Assembly (NCBI GenBank): GCA_002162675.1
Contig: MAAE01000053.1
Coordinates: forward strand, 1-64,000
Length of the DNA stretch: 64,000 nt
Direction: 5' to 3'
Source: Colwellia sp. 39_35_sub15_T18
GTDB taxonomy: Bacteria > Pseudomonadota > Gammaproteobacteria > Enterobacterales > Alteromonadaceae
This document shows positions 1 through 11,151 of this stretch, in pieces. Both the position numbers and the translations under genes were made by a program. The notes beneath the pieces are model-generated. The model worked only from the letters and a program-made list of their open reading frames with translations, did no database searches and was not told the DNA's origin. How positions within the stretch are numbered: the stretch's first letter is position 1; each line of letters starts with the position of its first letter.

Positions 1-412
1 TTATTTTTTTGCCCCACTCATTAGAGTTTTCATCATTTGTACCAGAGCAATGATGTATTTCATCAAAAACAGCTAATACTCTGAACTTATCAAATAATGA
101 CCAGAAACTTTCGTCTAGATATGCCATCTTCTGGTAAGTTATCGACTGTCCTTTATCGCCAATTTTTCCTTTAAAAGAACATTTGGTTATGCCACTGAAT
201 GCCTCTGTGAATTCATTTGCAACAATAGTTGAAGGAGAAAAACAAAGTACTAAATCAATATGATTACCTTTCAGTAATCGATTAGCTAAATTTGAGGTCA
301 TGAATGTTTTTCCTGCCGCTGGTGTTGCTTGCACCAGAAAGTGAACTTGGCCAGAACTGTATTTTTTTAGGGCAAGTTCCACGCATTCATGCTGCCATCT
401 TCTTAATCTCAT
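1..412 (-). CDS. Superfamily 2 helicase-like protein, N-terminal part only
   Basis: The frame starts with ATG at 412 and stays open to the left edge, so only about 137 residues are visible. It begins MRLRRWQHECVELAL, typical of the Q-motif region of SF2 helicases and of restriction-enzyme R subunits. A Walker A-like ATPAAGKT follows at about residues 29-36, and an FDEIHHC segment near residue 123 is a DEAD/DEIH-type Walker B. These motifs predict an ATP-dependent DNA or RNA translocase. The gene lies 5 nt behind the small unknown gene at 418-873, probably in one operon, with a divergent XRE regulator further upstream. This layout suggests an accessory, possibly anti-phage, module of the island. 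The rest of the protein, which would decide its function, is outside the window. Confidence 0.75.
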   Translation of the reverse strand, partial: MRLRRWQHECVELALKKYSSGQVHFLVQATPAAGKTFMTSNLANRLLKGNHIDLVLCFSPSTIVANEFTEAFSGITKCSFKGKIGDKGQSITYQKMAYLDESFWSLFDKFRVLAVFDEIHHCSGTNDENSNEWGKKI

Positions 413-417
413 AATGA

Positions 418-873
418 TTACGTGCTCTTATTGTTTAGTAATGATTCAATAGCTTTAATGTTGCCAAGTATTTTGGTGTTTTTCTCTCTTACACTGTTGT
501 ACTTAGGTTGCAGCTCAAATTGCAGCTCAGGGTATTCTACGCAAAGTTTTTTATACTCTTCTGCTTCTCCCATATTTAGCAGTAACTGTTGTTTATAATT
601 AATGTATCTTTTATTAAGGCTTATTGCTGTTTTAGTTAAAGTTGGTTTATGAGGATGCTGCGTTTTTACATAATCGTGATCTACTTTCCCTATCACATCA
701 TTTTTAAGCAGCAGCTTTATTTGAGCAGACATCAGAGCCAAAGTATTTAAATAGTCACTTCCATTTCTTTCTCCTAAAGCTTTTATCATCTTGTTAGGGA
801 AAATATTATCAAAAGATGGATCTCTAACTAGTTGTAAGATCTGTTTATTAACATTCACACTGATAAACCCCAA
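418..873 (-). CDS. Hypothetical protein, helicase operon
   Basis: An unrecognised protein of about 146-151 residues, soluble and largely helical, with no signal peptide or membrane segment. The longest frame starts with TTG at 873. A GTG at 858 preceded by a GGGG stretch at the right distance is a better start. The sequence is rich in Lys, Asn and Leu and shows no catalytic motif that I recognise. It ends 5 nt before the helicase gene, so the two are probably co-transcribed and may act together. The promoter should lie in the 111-bp gap shared with the divergent XRE gene, which contains a perfect inverted repeat. Confidence 0.65.
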   Translation of the reverse strand: MGFISVNVNKQILQLVRDPSFDNIFPNKMIKALGERNGSDYLNTLALMSAQIKLLLKNDVIGKVDHDYVKTQHPHKPTLTKTAISLNKRYINYKQQLLLNMGEAEEYKKLCVEYPELQFELQPKYNSVREKNTKILGNIKAIESLLNNKST

Positions 874-984: not shown

Positions 985-1194
985 ATGAGTAGTATTGCTA
1001 AAAGACTTGGTAAGAAAATAAAACTCGCTAGGGTTGAAAAAGATATGTCGCAGAGTAACTTAGCTAATGAAGCCGATATCGACTCAAGTCACATCGGAAA
1101 AATTGAGCGCGGTGAATTAAATATTACAGTTATAACACTCTATAGATTAGCCGAAGCTTTGGGATGTAGCCCCTCAGTATTACTACCAGAATAG
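985..1194 (+). CDS. XRE-family helix-turn-helix regulator
   Basis: A 69-residue single-domain repressor of the Cro/C1 (HTH_3) type. The helix-turn-helix spans about residues 22-45 (SQSNLANEADIDSSHIGKIE), followed by the usual ITLYRLAEALG helix. Length and layout match controller proteins of restriction-modification and other defence modules, which regulate their own promoter and that of a neighbouring toxic or costly gene. It is transcribed divergently from the small gene and helicase to its left, with a palindrome in between. A factor-independent terminator lies about 190 bp downstream. It is likely part of the island cargo. The fold is certain; the regulated target is inference. Confidence 0.85.
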   Translation: MSSIAKRLGKKIKLARVEKDMSQSNLANEADIDSSHIGKIERGELNITVITLYRLAEALGCSPSVLLPE

Positions 1195-1538: not shown

Positions 1539-2924
1539 CTAAAAATTCTTTTCAGTGAACTCAGCTAATGAACTACGTTCAACTTCATCAAAGATTAGAA
1601 CACTTCCTTTTTCATAATTTCTGTAAATATTCACCGCTGCACTAGCCCCTGACGATGTAGCAGTGACGAACCGATCATCAATTTGTGCAAGATTCCCAAG
1701 GACGATTGTACGGCAGTTTTTTCCTCCACGACTGAGCATTCCTTTCATTTGTGCCCTAGTCATATTTTGGGCTTCATCAATAATTAACACTGCATCATCG
1801 ATAGATCTGCCTCTAAAATAAGCCATACTGGTGAATTCAATATTAGCTCTATCAATTATATGTTCAACGGTGGCGCGAGTACTCTTTTCATCTTCATCGT
1901 CATGTGAGTGCATAGAAATCAAAGCATCGGTGATACCTGCGAGTAATGGCATTGACTTTTCTTTTAAATCTCCCGGAAGAAAACCTGGGTCGTCATCCAT
2001 AAAATCTCGACTACGAACTACAACAATTTTTTTATACTGTTTCAATTCGATCACTTGGTGTAACCCTGCTGCAATCGCTAAAAAAGTTTTACCTGAGCCA
2101 GCAGGGCCGAGGAGAATATTCAAATCAAAATCTGGGTCTACAAGTTGATCTAATGCAACTGCTTGTCGTTGATTTTTCGGAAGTATCCCCCAAATCTTTT
2201 CTGGTTTCCTTTGCAGCAGGGTCGTAAAAACATGTTCGTCCGTCACTTCTTTTATTTTTCCAATATGACCAATTTCATCATACCAGTACATATTGGGTTG
2301 GGCTTCTTCATTGAAAATATCACGGTTAAAACGATATAATTTTCCTGACATTGCAAAGTCTTTTTCTTCCTCGCATCGATCAAATAAATCTCCAGTGAAT
2401 GACTGTACTCCCATGTAAAGTAAGTCAATATCCGAAATTTGATTATCGACTAATACATCTTCAGCATCAACTCCAATGGTGCGTGCTTTTAAGCGCATAT
2501 TAATATCACGACTAACAATCGTAACGTCTTGCTTTAACGTATTTTGCAGATAAAGTGCGTAATTTATTATTCGATTATCGGCATCGCTTCCAATCGCGTG
2601 TTTTAATTCTTTTGCAAAGTCGATCTGAGTATCGATGCCAATGAATAGCTTTCCACGTTTCGCGGTTTCTGTGCAAGGTAACTGGATACCCTTTTCCATC
2701 TCTTCACTGGAATGGCCATTAATAATGTCTTCCAACATCCTAATAACAGCACGAGCATCCTGGCTAACGTTTTTATCTGTTCGCTCTTTTAGGTTATCAA
2801 GCTCTTCTAAAACTGTTAAACAAACATAAATGTCATCACGATATGCCAACAAACTCTTGGGATCATGAACAAGGGCTGATGTATCTAGTACACGTGGATT
2901 TCTATTTTCATTAGGATTCTTCAT
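1539..2924 (-). CDS. PIN-PhoH family ATPase/ribonuclease, complete island copy
   Basis: 461 residues, the usual length for PhoH2-type proteins. An N-terminal PIN nuclease-like domain (VLDTSALVHDP at about residues 12-22, later Asp-rich SRDINMRLKA) is followed by a PhoH P-loop domain. Walker A is GPAGSGKT near residue 277 and Walker B is LIIDEAQN near residue 383. Proteins of this class are RNA helicase/ribonuclease hybrids whose cellular role is poorly defined. The gene lies inside the island and is a diverged homologue of the chromosomal phoH that the island interrupts. At the codons matching the insertion point (about 1965-1990) it encodes GFLPG with different codons and then Asp-Leu instead of Thr-Glu. 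It overlaps the 76-residue ORF upstream by ATGA, suggesting translational coupling. I infer a replacement or self-protecting copy. Confidence 0.9.
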   Translation of the reverse strand: MKNPNENRNPRVLDTSALVHDPKSLLAYRDDIYVCLTVLEELDNLKERTDKNVSQDARAVIRMLEDIINGHSSEEMEKGIQLPCTETAKRGKLFIGIDTQIDFAKELKHAIGSDADNRIINYALYLQNTLKQDVTIVSRDINMRLKARTIGVDAEDVLVDNQISDIDLLYMGVQSFTGDLFDRCEEEKDFAMSGKLYRFNRDIFNEEAQPNMYWYDEIGHIGKIKEVTDEHVFTTLLQRKPEKIWGILPKNQRQAVALDQLVDPDFDLNILLGPAGSGKTFLAIAAGLHQVIELKQYKKIVVVRSRDFMDDDPGFLPGDLKEKSMPLLAGITDALISMHSHDDEDEKSTRATVEHIIDRANIEFTSMAYFRGRSIDDAVLIIDEAQNMTRAQMKGMLSRGGKNCRTIVLGNLAQIDDRFVTATSSGASAAVNIYRNYEKGSVLIFDEVERSSLAEFTEKNF

Positions 2925-3151
2925 ATAAAATTCTCATATTGATTCATGTGATCTAGAAATCGGCTATAAACTTTTGTTAGTTCGATTTGACGATCACTTA
3001 AAATAAACCTGCAAGTTCTTCTTGCAGAACTTCTTGTGAAGTATTTAGAGGAAAATTTATCTGTTACTTCTAGAAATAGAAGCAATATTGTTGAGAAGAT
3101 GTAGAACAGTGTTTTATTTATAGGCTTCACCACTTTCCCTAACTGCTGCAT
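2921..3151 (-). CDS. Small membrane protein coupled to island phoH
   Basis: A 76-residue ORF with one hydrophobic segment (about residues 14-29, TLFYIFSTILLLFLEV) and a basic, Arg-rich second half. I do not recognise a family. Its stop codon overlaps the ATG of the phoH gene by 4 nt, the classic sign of coupling, which is the main reason to believe it. It could be a true small partner of the PhoH protein or merely a leader ORF that feeds ribosomes to phoH. Confidence 0.4.
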   Translation of the reverse strand: MQQLGKVVKPINKTLFYIFSTILLLFLEVTDKFSSKYFTRSSARRTCRFILSDRQIELTKVYSRFLDHMNQYENFI

Positions 3152-3461
3152 GCAGTAAAAACCAATTAAATATTAGATCCATCAATATCCGCTTTATTTC
3201 TATCATTATCCCTGATTTCCATTAAGCTTCTTTACAATTACAATTTAATGACAATATCAAAAAATCATAAATTTTATCTAATACTTACTATTAACATTAG
3301 CAGATTTATGGCAAGTTTAACAATCAATTTTCCCTGTTTAAGTAATTATTTTCATATTTCTATATTTATAAAAGACTTAAAAATCAAGCTCCTTTAGAAA
3401 ATTAAGCACCACGAAGTTAACTAACCAGTGAAAGTTTCAAATTGACCACAAACTTCACTTA
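3152..3461. other. AT-rich gene-free gap inside the island
   Basis: 310 bp without a plausible gene, between the recombinase operon end and the small ORF before phoH. It is strongly AT-rich. The promoter for the small ORF and phoH should lie here, but no consensus stands out. Near its right end an imperfect hairpin (3427-3459, AGTGAAAGTTT against AAACTTCACT) sits directly after the last recombinase stop codon. It lacks a U tract. Confidence 0.5.
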
Positions 3462-4868
3462 TCATGCTTGAAGTAATTCTTCTAAATCACCTAGTAAATG
3501 ATCCATTTCATCAATTAATTCAGAAGCATTTATTTTTCCATTTGCAATTTTTTGTCTCAATTCAATTATTTCTTTTTGAGCTGAATTAACGCTACTCAGC
3601 ACTATTACTTTGTCCATAGTTGCATTAATACCTGATAAATCCCCAAAAGCTAAATGAATATAGTTATTCAATGATTTTAAACTTTTATGACCTGTCCAAC
3701 TGAGCAGTTTTAACTTGAATACTTTATCCGTAGCAAATTTTGCTTTTAATTCGCTTTCTTCTTTCAATTCAAAATCTTTTATAAGCATAGCTAGAATATT
3801 AGTAATATAACTATGTCGAAACGCATGGGCTATTAAGTCCCCTTTCGCACCTATAGCCTTTGCCCAATTATTGAACATTGTTGTTATACTGTCTGCACTT
3901 AAAGGGTTACCTGTAGTTTCACTTATAAATACAAAGTCATGGTCAATAATATTTTTATTTCCTTTAGCTATTCTTCCTTTATTTATTCTTTTGATAATTC
4001 GCAAACGCGTCCTTTTAATATATTTATTGATAGCTCGTAAAGTACCTCTATAAACTGGAATTTCACGCTCCACTTCGAGGTCTTCATGCCCTTTTTGCTT
4101 TAATGTTATCAAGCGTAACATAGGTATTTTTTCATCGCTTGATAAAGCTTTTTCAACATCAGGAACCCGTAAATTTGCAACTTCACTACGCCTACCTCCA
4201 GTAGCATCAAATGATTTTATTAAACATGAATCTCTTGCAATAAGTGATTTGCTGCTTCCTTCATCCACTAGCTTATATAGTTGAGATACATCAGCTAATG
4301 CAACAGGCAAACGCCTTACATAGACATCTTTACTCGGTAAGGAGAGGTGATTATAATATTTTCGACTGACATTACCTTCCTTATACTCAAGTTCAAAGCA
4401 TGTAAGCCGACAGGCTTTTTCTCCGATGAAGTATTTATCATAATGTTTTTTACCTACGAATATTAAAAACCTTAATGTATGCCTTCCTATTTCTACTACA
4501 CGCGTATTACTTCTATACTTAGTTCCATCTTTTTTTTTCTCCATCATTAATCGTTTGACAAAAAATTCGAAATAACTATCTGTTAACTCACAAAAATGAA
4601 TACGGTTATCGAAACAAAAACGAATAATATGTGAGAGAATACTCGCATTGGCTTTTGCAGTTCCGCCATCTCGTTTAATTGACCAAGACTTATTCATAAT
4701 TCCACTAAGCAAATATAAATTTGCCTCAACACATGGAACACTATTAGGCCAATTCAATGTAGGCATATTCATAACATTTTTGTATCGATATTCTACGTCA
4801 AATTCATCGTAAGAAAATGGTATTTTCGCATCATCATTAAGCTTTTCAACCAGTTTATGTTTTTTCAT
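3462..4868 (-). CDS. Tyrosine recombinase, fourth gene of the island operon
   Basis: A 468-residue site-specific recombinase with the complete tyrosine-recombinase signature: box I Arg in ATGGRRSEV (about residue 226), the H-x-x-R of AHAFRHSY (348-351), the second His in TGHKS (394) and the catalytic Tyr in NNYIHL (403). The N-terminal 170 residues form a core-binding-like region, and a coiled-coil-like tail follows residue 425. It would cut and rejoin the island ends by a 3'-phosphotyrosine intermediate. It is the last gene of the operon, 4 nt after the 187-residue gene. Of the three large proteins it has the clearest catalytic set. I do not assign a gene symbol because Tn554, RIT and GMT elements use different names for such genes. 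Confidence 0.88.
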   Translation of the reverse strand: MKKHKLVEKLNDDAKIPFSYDEFDVEYRYKNVMNMPTLNWPNSVPCVEANLYLLSGIMNKSWSIKRDGGTAKANASILSHIIRFCFDNRIHFCELTDSYFEFFVKRLMMEKKKDGTKYRSNTRVVEIGRHTLRFLIFVGKKHYDKYFIGEKACRLTCFELEYKEGNVSRKYYNHLSLPSKDVYVRRLPVALADVSQLYKLVDEGSSKSLIARDSCLIKSFDATGGRRSEVANLRVPDVEKALSSDEKIPMLRLITLKQKGHEDLEVEREIPVYRGTLRAINKYIKRTRLRIIKRINKGRIAKGNKNIIDHDFVFISETTGNPLSADSITTMFNNWAKAIGAKGDLIAHAFRHSYITNILAMLIKDFELKEESELKAKFATDKVFKLKLLSWTGHKSLKSLNNYIHLAFGDLSGINATMDKVIVLSSVNSAQKEIIELRQKIANGKINASELIDEMDHLLGDLEELLQA

Positions 4869-4872
4869 TTTG

Positions 4873-5436
4873 CTAAGCCTTACTCTTTTTTATATCCGCA
4901 TCTTTTAACTTGAAATTTCTACGTAATAAGGACTTTACTTTAGACATTTCAGATTCAATGATGTCTTTAATGTCATCATCCCGTGTCTCTTTTGCCAACT
5001 TATCTAAGGCATCAACGGTAACTTCGATTGCCTTTGAAAGAACCAAGTTTGCCTCTCTCACGATTGACAATTGAGATTCTTGTGCCTTTATAGTAAGTCT
5101 CATACCTTCTTTGGTATCTGCTCTAATTATTCTAGGGACTTTCTCTTTCATTATTAAAGAATTATTTATGGCAGTAAGAGCAGACTTTCTTAATTTGTCT
5201 ATCTTTTCATAGCCATCAGAAAGGTATGTATTTGCAGCATCTTTATAACTATTTCTCGACATAGACATAAAGTTATAACCAGAAAATTTCGACCAGTTTT
5301 CTTGTTTAGCTAGTGCTAGAATTAACTCTTCATCTTTTAAATACTCTTCTATATTCTCTTCGAAATTGTCCAAGAAAGTCGCTCTATCCTTTAAAGATGC
5401 AGCTTTTTTAAGTCTATTTTCTTCATGTTTGCTCAT
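4873..5436 (-). CDS. Small helical accessory protein of the recombinase operon
   Basis: A 187-residue charged protein, rich in Lys, Glu and Ala, predicted to be nearly all helix with coiled-coil-like stretches (about 115-165). There is no signal peptide. Its start lies 14 nt inside the preceding 766-residue gene, and 4 nt separate it from the next recombinase gene, so all are translated from one message. Multi-recombinase elements often carry one such small non-catalytic protein (TnpC in Tn554, GmtX in gamma-mobile-trio systems). I infer the same accessory role in assembling the recombination complex. The sequence alone does not show homology to either. Confidence 0.7.
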   Translation of the reverse strand: MSKHEENRLKKAASLKDRATFLDNFEENIEEYLKDEELILALAKQENWSKFSGYNFMSMSRNSYKDAANTYLSDGYEKIDKLRKSALTAINNSLIMKEKVPRIIRADTKEGMRLTIKAQESQLSIVREANLVLSKAIEVTVDALDKLAKETRDDDIKDIIESEMSKVKSLLRRNFKLKDADIKKSKA

Positions 5437-7723
5437 ATTTTAACACCAAGTCCATTACCGCTTTATCTTTGCCATCTCTGCTAGTAACCGTTACATACTC
5501 TGCTTTAAGATCTAACACTCCCTTTTCTAATAACCCTTCGAGAGAACTTAATAACACTGTATAGTTCTTGTATCTTTGGGGAACTACATGATCATGAGTG
5601 CTTTCCAGTGCTATGATTTCATCTTCAATATCTTCACTGATTTCCTCATAAGTCCTATATTCCAAACTTTTTAAGCCAAACTTATTCTTTAAAATTACTT
5701 CTAATTCACCTAACCCGCTAATATCTTTATTGCGAATACCATCAATCATTCTTTCAGCTTGTACCCCTCGCAATATCTCACCTGAAGTTTCTTCCACTAC
5801 ATATTGCTCAAGATGTTCTATATCCGTATGCGCCATAAAATATCTCAAGGTTTCACTAGCCTCATACCCATATGCCCAATAAAAAACCATCGCAAAAAAA
5901 CGTCTAAGTTGATGTTGTCTAATATATAACCTTCGGCTTACCCCTTGCTCATCAACATAAGTACGAGTTTCAAAATAATCACAAAACGCATCTAAGTTAT
6001 CGACAAATGATTCAGAGTTTCCTTCCTTTATTGCGAGCGACTTAAAGCTTAATGACGTGAACAACCCCAACTCTTTGAGATGATCAAGTACCCCATGCTC
6101 CTTTAACCTCAAATTAAAGCATTGCCATTTATATATAAGGGCTGCGATACTATTCAATATTGGTCGGCTTAATTGCTCTCTAACGATCTCTCCACCATAA
6201 GCGACCCCTGACTTACGATTGTCAAAAATCAAATTAAAATCTTGGGTAGGAAGTTCCTTAGGGTCAATATCTTTGGGCGTAATAGCTTCGTAGGGATCAA
6301 GCTCCACCAATTCTCCCATTCTTCTTGCCATGGTTGCACCTACAATCAACTGTAATGCTCCCTGCAAGACATTAAACAAGAAAAATAAATCTTTGTTTTC
6401 TCTTCGCTTGTTATATAAATCTTTTTCTGTTGAATAATACCCAACAACCTCTATACCAAGCGAAATGGCTTCCTCTGATAAATACTTTTTATAGCCGAAA
6501 TGAGTAAACTCTTTAAGTGATGTTTTTTGGATTTGTTCTTCACTAACCGATAGAATATTTTCAACATTTTGAAGTATTAACTCAGCATGTTCGTAGATGA
6601 ATTCAAATCCATTTTTAATTTGTGGAAGTACCTCTCCAGCACCAATAGTAACAGTTCGGCCCACTTGCTTTGCAGGCTTGCCCATCAGTGAATTTATTGA
6701 TATTTCTTCGAAAATAGAGCTACAAACTTGCGCTGTTTCTAACTGCACTAAATGACCAAAGGGATTAATGTCTGATAACATGTATAAATTCTGACGTATT
6801 GTTCTAAAGTACTTTTCAGAAATTCCTATCTCATAACGTTTACTCAAAGGATGTTGTACATACTCACTAGTTCTATTGTGATCAATGCCTTCGCCAACAG
6901 AGTACCTATCCAATTTAGGTAATTGAACCCTACCTCCATATAGAGTATTTTTGTAAAGTGTTTCTCTTAAATAACTTAGGCTTAAATTCCCATAACGGCT
7001 GTTGTCTTTTTTGCTCTCAAATGCTTTTTCTAAATGAAGAAACCCCAGTATTTTAGATAACTCATGATCATCATTAATAATAGATTTACTATCCAAATTA
7101 AATTTTTTAGACAATTTGATGAAACTTTTTTCCAACTCATTTGGATTATATTTACGAATATTCTTCTCAATATGAATATCGATCTTTTCCTCGGTGTCAT
7201 ATACACCTTTACTAATACTATCTTTATCAAACAATCTAGAAAGTAAAGTAATAACAGTATCTTTACACCACAACTTAAAATGTTTTTCTAATTTAAGTTG
7301 CTTTGAGTTTAGAAGAATGTAATCAATCAAATAAAGTGTGTTCCTTATTTTCTTTGATAAGGTTTCATTAGAAATTGACTGAAATCCGGTATGTAGTGGT
7401 GATGATTGGATTAATAACCAACATTTAAAAACGTTTAATAATTTGATGTGCTTTGGGGCTGTTAAATTTTCAATTTCTCCAGTGCTCGATTTGAAATTCA
7501 CATCAAAATTTAAAGTGATTTTTGCACTAGATAGCTTAATTTCCCATTGGTTTTCGACGATATCTGACTTCAACCAACTTGGCTGGCCAAAGGATGTTTC
7601 ATATCCGTTAACGTAACCAGAAACCATATCCTTACTTAGATTAAAGCTTTCTTGTGGAGTTAGTCCTACTACTAGCTTTTCGTAGCACAACTGACTAGTC
7701 TTGCTTCCTTTAATTAATTTCAT
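5423..7723 (-). CDS. Large tyrosine recombinase-like protein, second gene of the operon
   Basis: 766 residues, about twice the size of a typical integrase. The last 320 residues look like a tyrosine-recombinase catalytic domain: ARRMGELVELDP (Arg near 467), HQLRRFFAMVFYW (His604, Arg607), FMAHTD (His632) and EHLEQYV (Tyr641). The long N-terminal part has no motif I recognise and may bind the ends or partner subunits. The gene overlaps both neighbours by 14 nt, a tight arrangement that should fix protein ratios. Compared with the 468-residue recombinase, the spacing from His-x-x-R to Tyr is shorter. This supports distinct roles within one hetero-oligomeric recombination complex, as known for TnpA and TnpB of Tn554. 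Confidence 0.82.
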   Translation of the reverse strand: MKLIKGSKTSQLCYEKLVVGLTPQESFNLSKDMVSGYVNGYETSFGQPSWLKSDIVENQWEIKLSSAKITLNFDVNFKSSTGEIENLTAPKHIKLLNVFKCWLLIQSSPLHTGFQSISNETLSKKIRNTLYLIDYILLNSKQLKLEKHFKLWCKDTVITLLSRLFDKDSISKGVYDTEEKIDIHIEKNIRKYNPNELEKSFIKLSKKFNLDSKSIINDDHELSKILGFLHLEKAFESKKDNSRYGNLSLSYLRETLYKNTLYGGRVQLPKLDRYSVGEGIDHNRTSEYVQHPLSKRYEIGISEKYFRTIRQNLYMLSDINPFGHLVQLETAQVCSSIFEEISINSLMGKPAKQVGRTVTIGAGEVLPQIKNGFEFIYEHAELILQNVENILSVSEEQIQKTSLKEFTHFGYKKYLSEEAISLGIEVVGYYSTEKDLYNKRRENKDLFFLFNVLQGALQLIVGATMARRMGELVELDPYEAITPKDIDPKELPTQDFNLIFDNRKSGVAYGGEIVREQLSRPILNSIAALIYKWQCFNLRLKEHGVLDHLKELGLFTSLSFKSLAIKEGNSESFVDNLDAFCDYFETRTYVDEQGVSRRLYIRQHQLRRFFAMVFYWAYGYEASETLRYFMAHTDIEHLEQYVVEETSGEILRGVQAERMIDGIRNKDISGLGELEVILKNKFGLKSLEYRTYEEISEDIEDEIIALESTHDHVVPQRYKNYTVLLSSLEGLLEKGVLDLKAEYVTVTSRDGKDKAVMDLVLKYEQT

Positions 7724-10046
7724 GAATCACTCCCATTTGAAACTGAGAGAACTTTACTGGTTGATTCTTTGCCTCGTTATACATGTCTATAATCTCGCCA
7801 TCAAAAATTTCGTCATCAAAAGTAGATGAAGTCAATTGGTATTCTATTTGCGTAATAATTAATGTGGCCAACTGAATCCAGGTATCAATTACGTTTGATG
7901 GAAACCCAATTAGTGCAATTTCTTCTGATGAAGAACTAAAAAAGAACAACAATATTCGTAATAATGGCGTAGAAATAACAACAGCACCTTCTTGTTGAAC
8001 CGACATTACGTTCATAGGCAACACATTCCCATCCCATATATGCCCATTCATCGGCTCTAATTGATGATTTTTTAGAAATTCAGGTAAAGATTCAGGTGAG
8101 ATATCAATAGCATTATTAAGGTATTTTGAATCTTTCATCGCTTCAAAAACAATTGCATTTTGAAAGATAAGTATCCAACGGTCTTGAAAAAATCTCTGGA
8201 TCGGCCCTGGAAGATATCTCTCAACTAAATCTGTTCGGGGTTCTTTATGGCCCAGTGCTTCGCACATTTTCTTAATGGAATTAGTTTGCAAGAAGATCTC
8301 CACCCCCGTGCTAGCACGCATTCGATTTATCGTTAATAAACTTGCTACTTCTTTAGCTCTTTCATTCGAAACATTAGTGCTGGCCGATGATAACAATTTA
8401 GTAAATATCGACTGAGAAGTGATCTTTTTCAAATTAGTAATATGATTTAATTTTGATGGCTTTTTCTCTACAGAGCCAGTTATAAGTGCATAACGATAAT
8501 CATCACTACCTTTTGATTTTAAGTACTCACGTGCGATTTTAGTATGAGATAAAATGCTTTCAACTATAGGTTTGGAAGTATCATTTAAAGTGATAGTTTG
8601 CTCCGCATTTTCCATACCTCTTCGTTTTTTAACACTACGAATTACCCATGAATTACCAGATTGCATGTATCCATAAGGTTTTTTGCGTTCATTTAATAAC
8701 TGCCAATTCAGCAACCAAGACTCCGTGATTATTGGATGTTCATGTACCAACAATAGTATAAGCGGATACAAAACATGAAGAGTAGGAATGCATAACAAAC
8801 GATTTAAGAAATTAGTTTGATCTCTATACCCAAGAAGTACTGCATAACCGCCTTTTTTACCAGGATGATCCCACATGTAATGATTGAATGTTGCACAAGC
8901 AATGTTCTGCCTTTCGTCAATAGAGATATCTCCTTTGTAATCTCCAAGCTCTTTAGGGCTGGCTAGTTGAGTTTTACGCTTAAATCTCTCAAGTCTTTTA
9001 TTATTTAACTTTGAGGATTTTTTACTCACTTGCATTACGTGGTCAATATCACGTCGAATATCTTTTATGATTTCTCTAACCGCTTCGTTATCGTTATATT
9101 TTAATGGAACTTTTGTAACTAATTTATTATTGAAGATACCTGAGCTTTCTTTAGCTTCTTTATCATTATGAGAGCCTGGTAGTGAAATCGATTGTTTGAA
9201 TCTCGGCACTGGTAAAGGAAAATGAGGCTCGTCAAAAATAGACGGGTCGATTAAGCACTCTCTGAATAAATTCATCTTGTTTGACCACGCCCTAGTAAAA
9301 GCTGCGCCATCTAATCCCGCGTCTACATGATCTTTTAACTCAAAATTAAAAATTATCGATAGATAATAAACCGATAAATCTTTATTTAGATAATGTTGTA
9401 ATTGCTTAAACGAAGTGGCTAGTTTTATAAAATACCTAAATAATCCTGTAAAGTGCTTTAGGTGCGTTTCCACTGTTTTATCTTTATTTTTTCTACACAT
9501 CCCTTGCAAAGCTGCAAATAAAATAGCTGTAGTTTTTTCGCCATACGCCTCACGAATGAAACTCAGTGCAACCGAGCGCTCTATGCCCTTGTTATCTTCT
9601 ATATACCAACCAGCATAAAAATTAAGTTTGTTCTTGTTGATATAGCTAAGAGTATTGATAATAACTTGGACTTCTTTGTGAGCTGCAACTTTAGATAATT
9701 TAGGTGGTTCAATGGTTACGGATGCATTGTCAGCAATTCGCTTCATCAGAGTTATTACATATCGACTGTAATTGTATTTATGACTAATACTTCCATCTAT
9801 ATGAGTATAAATAAAGGCTATAACTGAAGTAAGTAACTCGCTAATTTGAGCTTTACTATTGAACGATTTTAAACTTAGCGTATTACCTGAAGAGTAAAGA
9901 TAAGCATCAATAACTAATAAAACAATGGTAAAATTTTTTCGAATTTCAGGTGAAAAGTAACTCTTTTGTTCTAAGAATGTAGCTTGTTGTTGCTCAGTAA
10001 TAACTTGAAACGGGAATTGGGAGATGATGTTGGTTTTTATTTTCAT
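7710..10046 (-). CDS. Large recombinase-like protein, first gene of the operon, degenerate box I
   Basis: 778 residues and the promoter-proximal gene of the operon. Its C-terminal third has a recognisable tyrosine-recombinase box II, but with Asn in place of the first His (INRMRAST, Asn574 and Arg577), then ALGHKEP (His600) and VERYLP (Tyr611). The region expected to hold the first catalytic Arg (about 425-450, PLILLLVHEHPII) has no suitable Arg. It may be a structural or regulatory subunit, or an active enzyme with an unusual catalytic set. ATG at 10046 has a weak AAGG-type ribosome site. A TTGACA -35 lies inside a palindrome upstream, suggesting self-regulation. The gene lies 140 bp from the island border. 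Confidence 0.78.
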   Translation of the reverse strand: MKIKTNIISQFPFQVITEQQQATFLEQKSYFSPEIRKNFTIVLLVIDAYLYSSGNTLSLKSFNSKAQISELLTSVIAFIYTHIDGSISHKYNYSRYVITLMKRIADNASVTIEPPKLSKVAAHKEVQVIINTLSYINKNKLNFYAGWYIEDNKGIERSVALSFIREAYGEKTTAILFAALQGMCRKNKDKTVETHLKHFTGLFRYFIKLATSFKQLQHYLNKDLSVYYLSIIFNFELKDHVDAGLDGAAFTRAWSNKMNLFRECLIDPSIFDEPHFPLPVPRFKQSISLPGSHNDKEAKESSGIFNNKLVTKVPLKYNDNEAVREIIKDIRRDIDHVMQVSKKSSKLNNKRLERFKRKTQLASPKELGDYKGDISIDERQNIACATFNHYMWDHPGKKGGYAVLLGYRDQTNFLNRLLCIPTLHVLYPLILLLVHEHPIITESWLLNWQLLNERKKPYGYMQSGNSWVIRSVKKRRGMENAEQTITLNDTSKPIVESILSHTKIAREYLKSKGSDDYRYALITGSVEKKPSKLNHITNLKKITSQSIFTKLLSSASTNVSNERAKEVASLLTINRMRASTGVEIFLQTNSIKKMCEALGHKEPRTDLVERYLPGPIQRFFQDRWILIFQNAIVFEAMKDSKYLNNAIDISPESLPEFLKNHQLEPMNGHIWDGNVLPMNVMSVQQEGAVVISTPLLRILLFFFSSSSEEIALIGFPSNVIDTWIQLATLIITQIEYQLTSSTFDDEIFDGEIIDMYNEAKNQPVKFSQFQMGVIHEIN

Positions 10047-10067
10047 TTGAATAGAGCCTTGCTTTTA

Positions 10068-10099
10068 TTCAAATGTAGACCTTTTTTGACAATTGTCAA
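10068..10099 (-). promoter_or_regulatory. Recombinase operon promoter
   Basis: On the minus strand a perfect TTGACA (10094-10099) is followed after 16 nt by a TACATT-type -10 hexamer, about 20-30 nt before the ATG of the first recombinase gene. The -35 box lies inside a 14-bp palindrome, so a protein bound there would block RNA polymerase. Confidence 0.5.
10086..10099. promoter_or_regulatory. Palindrome TTGACAATTGTCAA at the island tip
   Basis: A perfect 14-bp palindrome 40 bp upstream of the recombinase operon and about 90 bp from the junction with phoH. Eleven bases of it and its left flank (TTTTTGACAAT, 10083-10093) recur at 10156-10166, within 20 bp of the junction. Repeated inverted and direct half-sites of this kind are what recombinase arm or core sites look like. 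Binding by the island recombinases or an operon repressor is inferred. Confidence 0.5.
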
Positions 10100-10113
10100 T
10101 AAATATTTAACAC

Positions 10114-11151
10114 CTATATCACTCTGCGTACCATGTAATCATTAATCTTATAAAGTTTTTGACAATACATGTAAATTAGGAAAACTTCGGTGCCGGGTAA
10201 AAAGCCAATAGATTCAGCTATGTCTGGCGTTGAACGGGTGACAATTATCTTGTCATACAAGCCTCTTTCAATAACCTGCTCTAATGCTGTAGCAAGCGCA
10301 AGTAGCGTTTTACCACAACCTGCTGGCCCTGTTAAAATCACCAAATCAATACTTGGATCAAGCAATGCGTCCATTGCCATACCTTGATAAATATTTTTAG
10401 GATGGATCCCCCAAGCTGTTTTTCCCATCAAACGCTCACGTCCTAAATCTAAAATGGAAATTTGCTCGTCATCCCAACCAGTAACCTTACCGGCAAAGCT
10501 TTCACTTTCATCAATAAGGTATTCATTCATATAACTCACTGGCACAGTGCTCTTATCAATGAAGTGTGTGGTATATCGCCCGTCTGATTCGCTATCACAC
10601 GCTTTAATTTGTTGCCAAAAATCGCCTTTAAATTGATGATAACCTTTGGTTAAAAATTGAATGTCATCAATAAGCTGATCGGTTCTGTAGTCTTCCACAT
10701 GCGCTAGCCCTGCCCCTTTAGCTTTTAAACGCATATTAATATCTTTAGTGACTAAGACTATTTTGCTGTGCGGGTTTTTATCTTGTATATGCAACGCGGC
10801 ATTAATAATGCGATTATCATTTTCATTAAAGGATAGTGTTTTAGCCGTTTGCGCTAAGGAGTAATCATTGATAATTGACAAACAGCCACTGGGGTGTTGC
10901 TCGTCATTTTCAGGTAATTTCACCCCCGCAAGTACTTGTTCGGGAGTAGCGTCAGACAAAGTATCTTCAAGCGCGCGAATAGCTACTCTAGCATCTCGGC
11001 TGACATCTTTACGTCGATCTTTTATTGAGTCTAACTCTTCTAGTACTGTCATCGGCACGACAACATCGTGTTCTTGAAAAGATAAAAAAGCGAAGGGTTC
11101 GTGCAGTAGAATATTGGTGTCGAGGATATAAATAGTTTTTTCTTCATTCAT
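10114..11151 (-). pseudogene. Chromosomal PIN-PhoH ATPase gene truncated by the island
   Basis: The frame encodes 345 residues, but only the first 322 belong to a PhoH2-type protein (normal length about 460). The PIN domain (ILDTNILLHEP, DARVAIRALED, VLVTKDINMRLKAKG) and the first part of the PhoH domain with Walker A (LTGPAGCGKT, about 273-282) are intact. After GFLPGTE the frame runs into island DNA and adds 23 unrelated residues. Walker B (normally IDEAQN) and the sensor region are lost, so ATPase activity should be gone, although a PIN-only product could still form. ATG at 11151 lies divergent to rapA. A full homologue sits in the island at 1539-2924. The 3' half presumably lies beyond the left edge. 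Confidence 0.88.

Follow-up and report, generated by a model that had tools for sequence, protein, structure and literature searches.

On the first 64 kb of contig C47 of Colwellia sp. 39_35_sub15_T18 (a draft genome of 4.0 Mb in 72 contigs, hereafter G000; the 64 kb stretch is referred to as the window), a genomic island interrupts the chromosomal phoH gene, which encodes a PhoH protein with a PIN domain (PIN-PhoH), and carries a distant, intact phoH of its own. Together with the related loci presented here, it very probably represents a group of target-gene-replacing islands, in which phoH is split by site-specific insertion and a distant but intact PhoH is supplied by the incoming DNA. This reading is built, by comparison, on the recovery of the 3' half of the split gene, on matching island ends, on the single clade formed by the replacement genes and their conservation, and on their co-oriented position behind the native 5' part.

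The native 5' part, as delimited by Pfam and by alignment with relatives, adjoins rapA and occupies positions 10186..11151 of the window on the minus strand. The open reading frame (ORF) as it now stands (10114-11151, minus strand) comprises 322 native PIN-PhoH codons ending in ...IGFLPGTE, followed by 23 codons of foreign DNA, an island-derived tail (10114..10185, minus strand) that closes the broken frame. It matches PIN_4, yet the Pfam PhoH match covers only positions 2-90 of 205 and Walker B is thus gone, which bears out the preliminary description of this DNA, where the native gene was said to turn into island DNA after GFLPGTE with loss of Walker B. At the nucleotide level, the broken gene tracks its relatives through the codons GGC ACC GAA and departs thereafter, at the point where intact relatives continue with Glu-Glu-Lys-Met (all 11 of those printed). 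The lost 3' half, which the same description expected at the other island end, was found in the same genome on contig C17 (L005:4336-4755), behind a matching core and inverted repeat: foreign DNA ending in ...TTAGGGAA runs straight into ACCGAAG and then into the native 3' half. This 7-bp core is therefore present at both phoH junctions, on C47 (10185..10191, minus strand) and on C17 (L005:4336-4342). The left island end on C17, TTTTTGACAAC...TTAGG, forms an imperfect inverted pair with the right end, CCTAA...TTGTCAAAAA, the latter being annotated in the window as the right terminal inverted repeat CCTAA...TTGTCAAAAACTT (10153..10180, minus strand). When the two halves were joined computationally, an open native-like frame ran across the junction, with 34 of 35 residues matching a relative. 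The matching junctions and inverted ends thus indicate an insertion into the middle of the chromosomal phoH, whose earlier intact form can still be read across the junction.

The island-encoded PhoH (1539..2924, minus strand) is a full-length protein of 461 amino acids (aa) that has both the PIN and the PhoH domain and retains the conserved motifs. As the preliminary description had stated, it has the same architecture as the native protein and lies about 7 kb inside the island: it matches PIN_4 and positions 2-196 of 205 of Pfam PhoH, and its ATG is 7.19 kb away from the end of the broken ORF. It is ~40% identical to the native type, and at the codons equivalent to the junction it reads GFLPG-Asp-Leu (GGTTTTCTTCCGGGAGATTTA) where natives have GFLPG-Thr-Glu, so that the reported retention of GFLPG and change of Thr-Glu to Asp-Leu are confirmed.

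The closest relative of the recombinase operon that lies between the broken gene and the island phoH was found in another genus (G143), with 59% identity for the 778-aa product of gene 1, 58-61% for the two large proteins and 44-55% for the other two. Its layout is that of the window: phoH is cut at the same codons and followed by homologues of the 778-, 766-, 187- and 468-aa proteins, a 76-aa ORF and an island phoH 85% identical to that of the window. The native 5' and 3' parts of G143 are on one contig, ~62.5 kb apart, with the left end as in the window. When gene 1 was searched in 196 family genomes, 6 gave matches, the window genome included. The left end TTTTTGACAAC...TTAG stands beside native codons from ~328 on in all seven loci searched, which had been selected for a 3' part starting at this point (G000, G143, G154, G358, G142, G108, G269); among these, a window-type recombinase operon was seen only in G000 and G143. 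The prediction that relatives of this operon would occupy the same phoH codons and carry a phoH copy holds for G143 and fails for the distant relatives (24-36% identity), since no PhoH was found in L036, L037 and L038 and none was seen by eye in L217-L220.

To establish how widespread such genes are, the island PhoH was used as a query against 39 genus genomes and 395 family genomes (the latter drawn from a larger group), island-type copies having 68-100% identity to the query (ordinary natives reach ~40%) and rows being counted by hand. Among the matches listed, 42 of the 395 family genomes have an island-type phoH. A re-search of 43 genomes with a native query, combined with the genus search, allowed these 42 carriers to be classed: 36 have a truncated native 5' part, in one (G210) the truncated gene is itself island-type, five have the island type only (G217, G201, G206, G140, G305) and none has an intact native gene. 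The match of one island-type copy (G327) stops at residue 446 of 461. Within the genus, 24 of the 39 genomes have an intact native gene, nine an island-type gene and four neither, one (G214) has a 3' part at a contig end and one (G204) a frame-broken native gene; two carriers, G218 and G220, came from the genus search only. Three genomes, G214, G089 and G295, were excluded from the split count. In an order-level search, 8 of 394 genomes passed a strict cut, five of them already counted and three new, in another family (G265, G460, G557). Among the matches listed from a named collection, the island type also occurs in records of Colwellia, Cognaticolwellia, Thalassotalea, Pseudoalteromonas, Glaciecola, Alteromonas, Arsukibacterium, Shewanella, Parashewanella, Idiomarina, Ferrimonas and Vibrio ruber. 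The G214 contig ends at the phoH Walker A target codons, the 3' part alone being present (L033:9610). In G265 and G460 (L188, L189), the island-type phoH has no rapA nearby, and the gene set beside it resembles, by eye, the cargo of the G069 island. G391 seemed to have two native copies, but both ORFs begin identically (first residues, by eye) and one meets a contig end, and they were read as a single sequence present at the ends of two contigs.

The 36 truncated 5' parts end at four positions (native numbering of L013): site A at ~292 in Walker A (20 genomes), site B at ~332 in GFLPGTE (2), site C at ~390 just before Walker B (11) and site D at ~430 after NLAQID (3). A fifth position, D', before NLAQID, is defined by three 3' parts that begin at 416. 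Native 3' parts were found for some but not all of the split genomes. Among the loci examined, a subset of the 36, each position has one module type, modules being assigned to their nearest native junction. The alpha module, that of the window, is at site B (G000, G143). The beta module, with proteins of 1099, 779 and 239 aa, a RecD2-like helicase and a 449-aa recombinase, is at site A (G210, G226, G069, G195, G033, G172). The gamma module, with proteins of 494, 969, 693 and 161 aa, is at site C (G058, G183, G379, G400), and gamma relatives, ~31-44% identical, are at D' (G200, G133, G027) and at D (G065). The stretches examined in G200 and G133 hold only a recombinase fragment, and in G065 the module lies behind the island phoH. 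By BLAST, the link between alpha and beta is marginal (E 0.004) and neither is linked to gamma. In profile comparison, two alpha proteins, the second (93%) and the fourth (96%), were linked to beta, and nothing above 30% was returned with the gamma system of site C. The Arg, His-x-x-Arg, His and Tyr columns, which we take to be the catalytic positions, are all shared by the second proteins of alpha and beta, and mostly shared by the fourth. Inverted-repeat ends are supported at site B; those at A and C are imperfect and were judged by eye. Automatic joining of the halves gave a native-like frame with fuzzy cut points for G000, G069, G183, G379 and G134; it gave no result for G182, G226, G058 or the nested G210, and placed the join of G143 wrongly. 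An exact core is therefore claimed for the window only.

The placement of the island phoH relative to the broken gene was examined by following the native frame into the island for 34 loci, representing 30 distinct genomes. In 13 of the 30, the native frame overlaps the island phoH start (TAATG or ATGA) or ends within one base of it, and in 28 this start lies at most 300 nt from the native frame end. Overlap or abutment is seen in all 10 genomes at site C, in two of the three at D, in one of the 15 at A (where the nested G210 is counted) and in neither of the two at B; the one-base overlap of the L097 and L117 genomes was read in L142 and L092, respectively. At the remaining site-A loci, 61-292 nt separate the end of the native frame from the island phoH start. 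In the window, the island phoH is the last gene of a co-oriented run that opens with the recombinases, and its start overlaps by ATGA with the 76-aa ORF. Small gene families of ~120, 345 and 105-115 aa recur just behind the island phoH (L027:6044-8071, L083:11770-14053, L078, L088, L093, L096, L108); the two of them that were tested have no Pfam family.

From 127 PhoH sequences, a tree of 78 rows was calculated after dropping identical rows, rows shorter than 430 aa, natives beyond 24 and others beyond 16. The island PhoH sequences, 38 of the 78 rows, lie on one side of a single branch with a support of 100/100, recovered in 100% of 200 bootstrap trees. Inside this clade host families are intermixed; natives group broadly by host (by inspection). 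The separating branch is long. The PIN and P-loop motifs are invariant in the PhoH alignment. In NG86 comparisons with the window gene, the synonymous divergence (dS) is finite in 13 of the 40 printed pairs, with an omega of 0.014-0.047 (some pairs represent the same genome twice), and these finite pairs point to strong purifying selection on the island PhoH.

Asp-Leu is found at the junction residues in 54 of 54 island-type sequences (some genomes being counted twice), including those of islands inserted at other codons, whereas the remaining PIN-PhoH sequences have Thr-Glu (73 of 73). The second PhoH of the window genome, which we take to be YbeZ-like, also reads Asp-Leu. Asp-Leu is thus a residue of the lineage, and the loss of the site-B core its consequence. 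The preliminary description had suggested that it may be a recoding that protects the element from self-insertion. This idea is weak, because Asp-Leu is lineage-wide and because in G210 an island-type phoH has itself been split again, at the Walker A codons; this is the only re-insertion seen. The divergence of the island copy at sites B, C and D would make it a poor target there, while its Walker A codons stay similar, so that immunity is partial and probably a by-product.

Several loci seem to represent later stages. In G210, a site-A element has split an island-type phoH and brought another, the two halves lying 52.5 kb apart on one contig. G108, G154, G027 and G133 have 5' and 3' parts from different positions on the same contig, an arrangement that would fit stacked insertions with deletion; in G154, the native codons that separate site A from site B occur nowhere in the 31.6 kb, a likely deletion after two insertions. 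The same mixture of positions is found in G358, G142, G200 and G294, on different contigs and hence with less certainty. In G218, the island phoH lies between rapA and the usual phoH-downstream genes (argR-like and mdh-like by eye), with ~46 native codons left and no recombinase module at this locus, and Vibrio ruber is similar, with a native remnant of ~62 codons. These are the states in which gene replacement would be expected to end. G269 has an intact native-type phoH (L178:1202-2599) and, ~54 kb away, a nearly identical displaced native 3' part (L179:10839-11252). This displaced part adjoins a window-type left end, which may reflect a repaired or duplicated target.

We propose that multi-gene tyrosine-recombinase operons insert islands at fixed codons of the conserved PIN-PhoH gene, and that each insertion would split phoH while the island supplies a distant, intact PhoH. 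The islands are presumably still mobile. The replacement would be transcribed from the native promoter and, where the frames overlap, translationally coupled to the broken gene; in the window, such coupling would operate inside the run from the recombinases to phoH. If the island PhoH does the job of PhoH, its presence would make it less costly for an island to land in a conserved coding sequence. Islands may later stack or decay, the replacement gene staying behind. A broader reading, which we favour by a modest margin of confidence, is that a dedicated mobile lineage of PhoH is used as an exchangeable spare by three or more multi-recombinase systems. These systems, between which similarity is slight or undetectable and each of which is fixed on a different, highly conserved stretch of phoH codons, would have come to carry it independently, wired to the expression of the broken gene. 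Such islands would use the codons of conserved motifs as broad-host landing sites and, in time, swap the host gene.

Several observations weigh against target-gene replacement. The contigs C47 and C17 are separate in the assembly. Excision, expression and PhoH function are inferred from sequence comparison, and dS is saturated in 27 of the 40 printed pairs. The sample holds one genome per species and thus no strain-level empty site. Native fragments at contig ends with no island copy found (G089, G295, G214) make a split without replacement possible, and G204, G283 and G057 have frame-broken or fragmentary natives, again with no island copy found. Distant relatives of the window operon sit elsewhere, and a check of the target in one of them, G138, revealed no replacement copy. 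In addition, PIN-PhoH looks dispensable, being absent from 4 of 39 same-genus genomes, and start-stop coupling is lacking in 17 of 30 genomes. These last two points would also suit an account that we find unlikely, though less so than the other alternatives, in which phoH is a dispensable safe harbour whose conserved codons attract islands, the carried phoH being cargo with a benefit of its own, for instance related to phages or stress. Many phages and some plasmids do carry PhoH, all less than 60% identical. Such cargo is nevertheless difficult to reconcile with the absence of any genome, among the 42 carriers, that pairs an intact native with an island phoH, with the start of the island gene within 300 nt of the native frame end in nearly all genomes followed (overlapping or abutting it in 13), or with the island phoH of G218, which has outlived its island at the native locus.

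It is improbable that the pair forms an addiction device, in which the cut-off PIN-domain fragment acts alone and is balanced by the island PhoH. The native 5' parts of split genomes are without internal stops and some 3' parts have them (two TGA in G326, one TAA in G143), but open 5' frames are equally predicted by coupling alone, and the native part is down to only ~31-62 codons in G217, G218 and Vibrio ruber. Least probable is the classical regeneration of a target end, in which the 3' end of the target travels with the island and completes the gene again upon insertion, as is known for tRNA, prfC and dusA sites. The intact native-type gene of G269, with its displaced 3' part at the left end of an element, could be understood in this way; however, in the window and the other loci followed, the native frame enters foreign DNA and stops (in the window after 23 codons), and the new gene is a complete, separate ORF with ~40% identity. 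Target-gene replacement remains our preferred explanation.

The recombinase operon of the window comprises four genes, all on the minus strand, in the order large, large, small, tyrosine recombinase. Gene 1 (7710..10046, 778 aa) is a candidate recombinase-operon protein, its homologues being equally placed in other four-gene operons; it has no Pfam or NCBIfam match, and an AlphaFold model built from four sequences (pLDDT 42) was not used. Gene 2 (5423..7723, 766 aa) is assigned as a large tyrosine recombinase, with ARR, HxxR, H and Y invariant relative to the second protein of site A. Gene 3 (4873..5436, 187 aa) encodes a small accessory protein without a family, and gene 4 (3462..4868, 468 aa) an ordinary tyrosine recombinase (Phage_integrase). 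The 76-aa ORF that follows (2921..3151, minus strand) overlaps the island phoH start by 4 nt and has a 47% identical homologue in G143. Beyond phoH are a small HTH_3 regulator (985..1194, plus strand) and a helicase (ResIII/DEAD, cut by the contig start) with a 151-aa partner (2..873, minus strand), a pair also present in the site-A islands of G226 and G069. No Gamma-Mobile-Trio (GMT; GmtX, GmtY, GmtZ) model was among the NCBIfam matches up to E 1, NCBIfam presumably including such models. The left island end on C17 encodes a MoxR-type AAA ATPase of the MoxR-vWA-beta-propeller ternary class and a 278-aa partner without a family (L005:24-2373). The cargo of the G154 island includes RND efflux, cation efflux, MerR and heavy-metal P-type ATPase genes, and similar ORFs occur in other islands (by eye or clustering). 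In G138, the distant operon relative adjoins a K+ channel gene (named by eye) that starts abruptly at its selectivity-filter codons (L036:6784-7819); the channel frame is 306 aa there and 353-375 aa in seven searched congeners, and a search of G138 for a second copy of the truncated gene found none.

The complete, diverged replacement of an ATPase gene, presented in the preliminary description as something not yet described, has precedents in the recA islands of Vibrio, as the accounts of V. cholerae S24 (PMC4405046) and V. parahaemolyticus 090-96 (PMC4334540) report a divergent full recA carried by an island in recA. Like the phoH islands, these recA mobile elements (RME) occupy a fixed position in a conserved ATPase gene, of which both halves are present, and have short terminal inverted repeats and a full divergent copy at one end (7.2 kb in from it in the case of the window). 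In S24, the integrase is at the opposite end, and excision has been demonstrated to restore the native recA (PMC4405046). As described, RME differ in their target, in copies that are ~23-24% divergent (versus ~60% in protein for phoH) and in the use of one recA position (491/494) versus five in phoH. The phoH islands, in addition, use several recombinase systems, show start-stop coupling, include nested and composite forms, and can leave their phoH as the replacement once the island is lost. The V. cholerae recA island also carries umuDC (PMC4405046). A UmuC-like polymerase gene (Pfam IMS) lies inside the phoH island of G210 (L048:5217-6473).

By gene content, as far as their published descriptions go, the nearest mobile-element groups are SE and GInt. 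SE elements, with an intA-tfp-intB-srap operon (PMC10214605), share the four-gene multi-recombinase operon, inverted-repeat ends, few target sites and an occurrence in marine Gammaproteobacteria. Their gene order fits the site-C operon (tyrosine recombinase, large, tyrosine recombinase, small) and not that of the window, and the word phoH is absent from the main text of the SE paper (PMC10214605). The third protein of site C matches part of plasmid pAQU1 (31% identity over 37%). GInts (ginABCD; PMC5385486), compared by description only, have three integrase-like proteins and one small protein, large cargo and integration into coding genes, target replacement not being among the features described. 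The Staphylococcus transposon Tn552-II carries a target-gene-like gene, tgl, for which a possible rescue of the disrupted target was suggested (PMC12486829); it differs in being small, in its unrelated gene and in that rescue is only suggested. Among the papers that they listed, our literature searches returned no title or abstract opening treating phoH as an island site, and nothing on divergent copies of target genes beyond the systems named here. The logic of target-gene replacement is thus known from recA islands, of which the phoH islands are a much broader variant; what is new is the phoH target, the number of positions and recombinase systems that draw on a single lineage of replacement genes, their coupling to the native frame, and the gradation from split to replaced genes.

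What was a curiosity of Vibrio recA islands hence becomes a pattern in dozens of genomes from several marine families, with one replacement gene used across recombinase systems. It explains the odd pairs of broken and distant phoH genes in these genomes, and offers a route by which a widespread host gene may be exchanged for a foreign one at its own locus. The natural series of split, stacked and island-free loci would allow the steps of such gene displacement to be tested.

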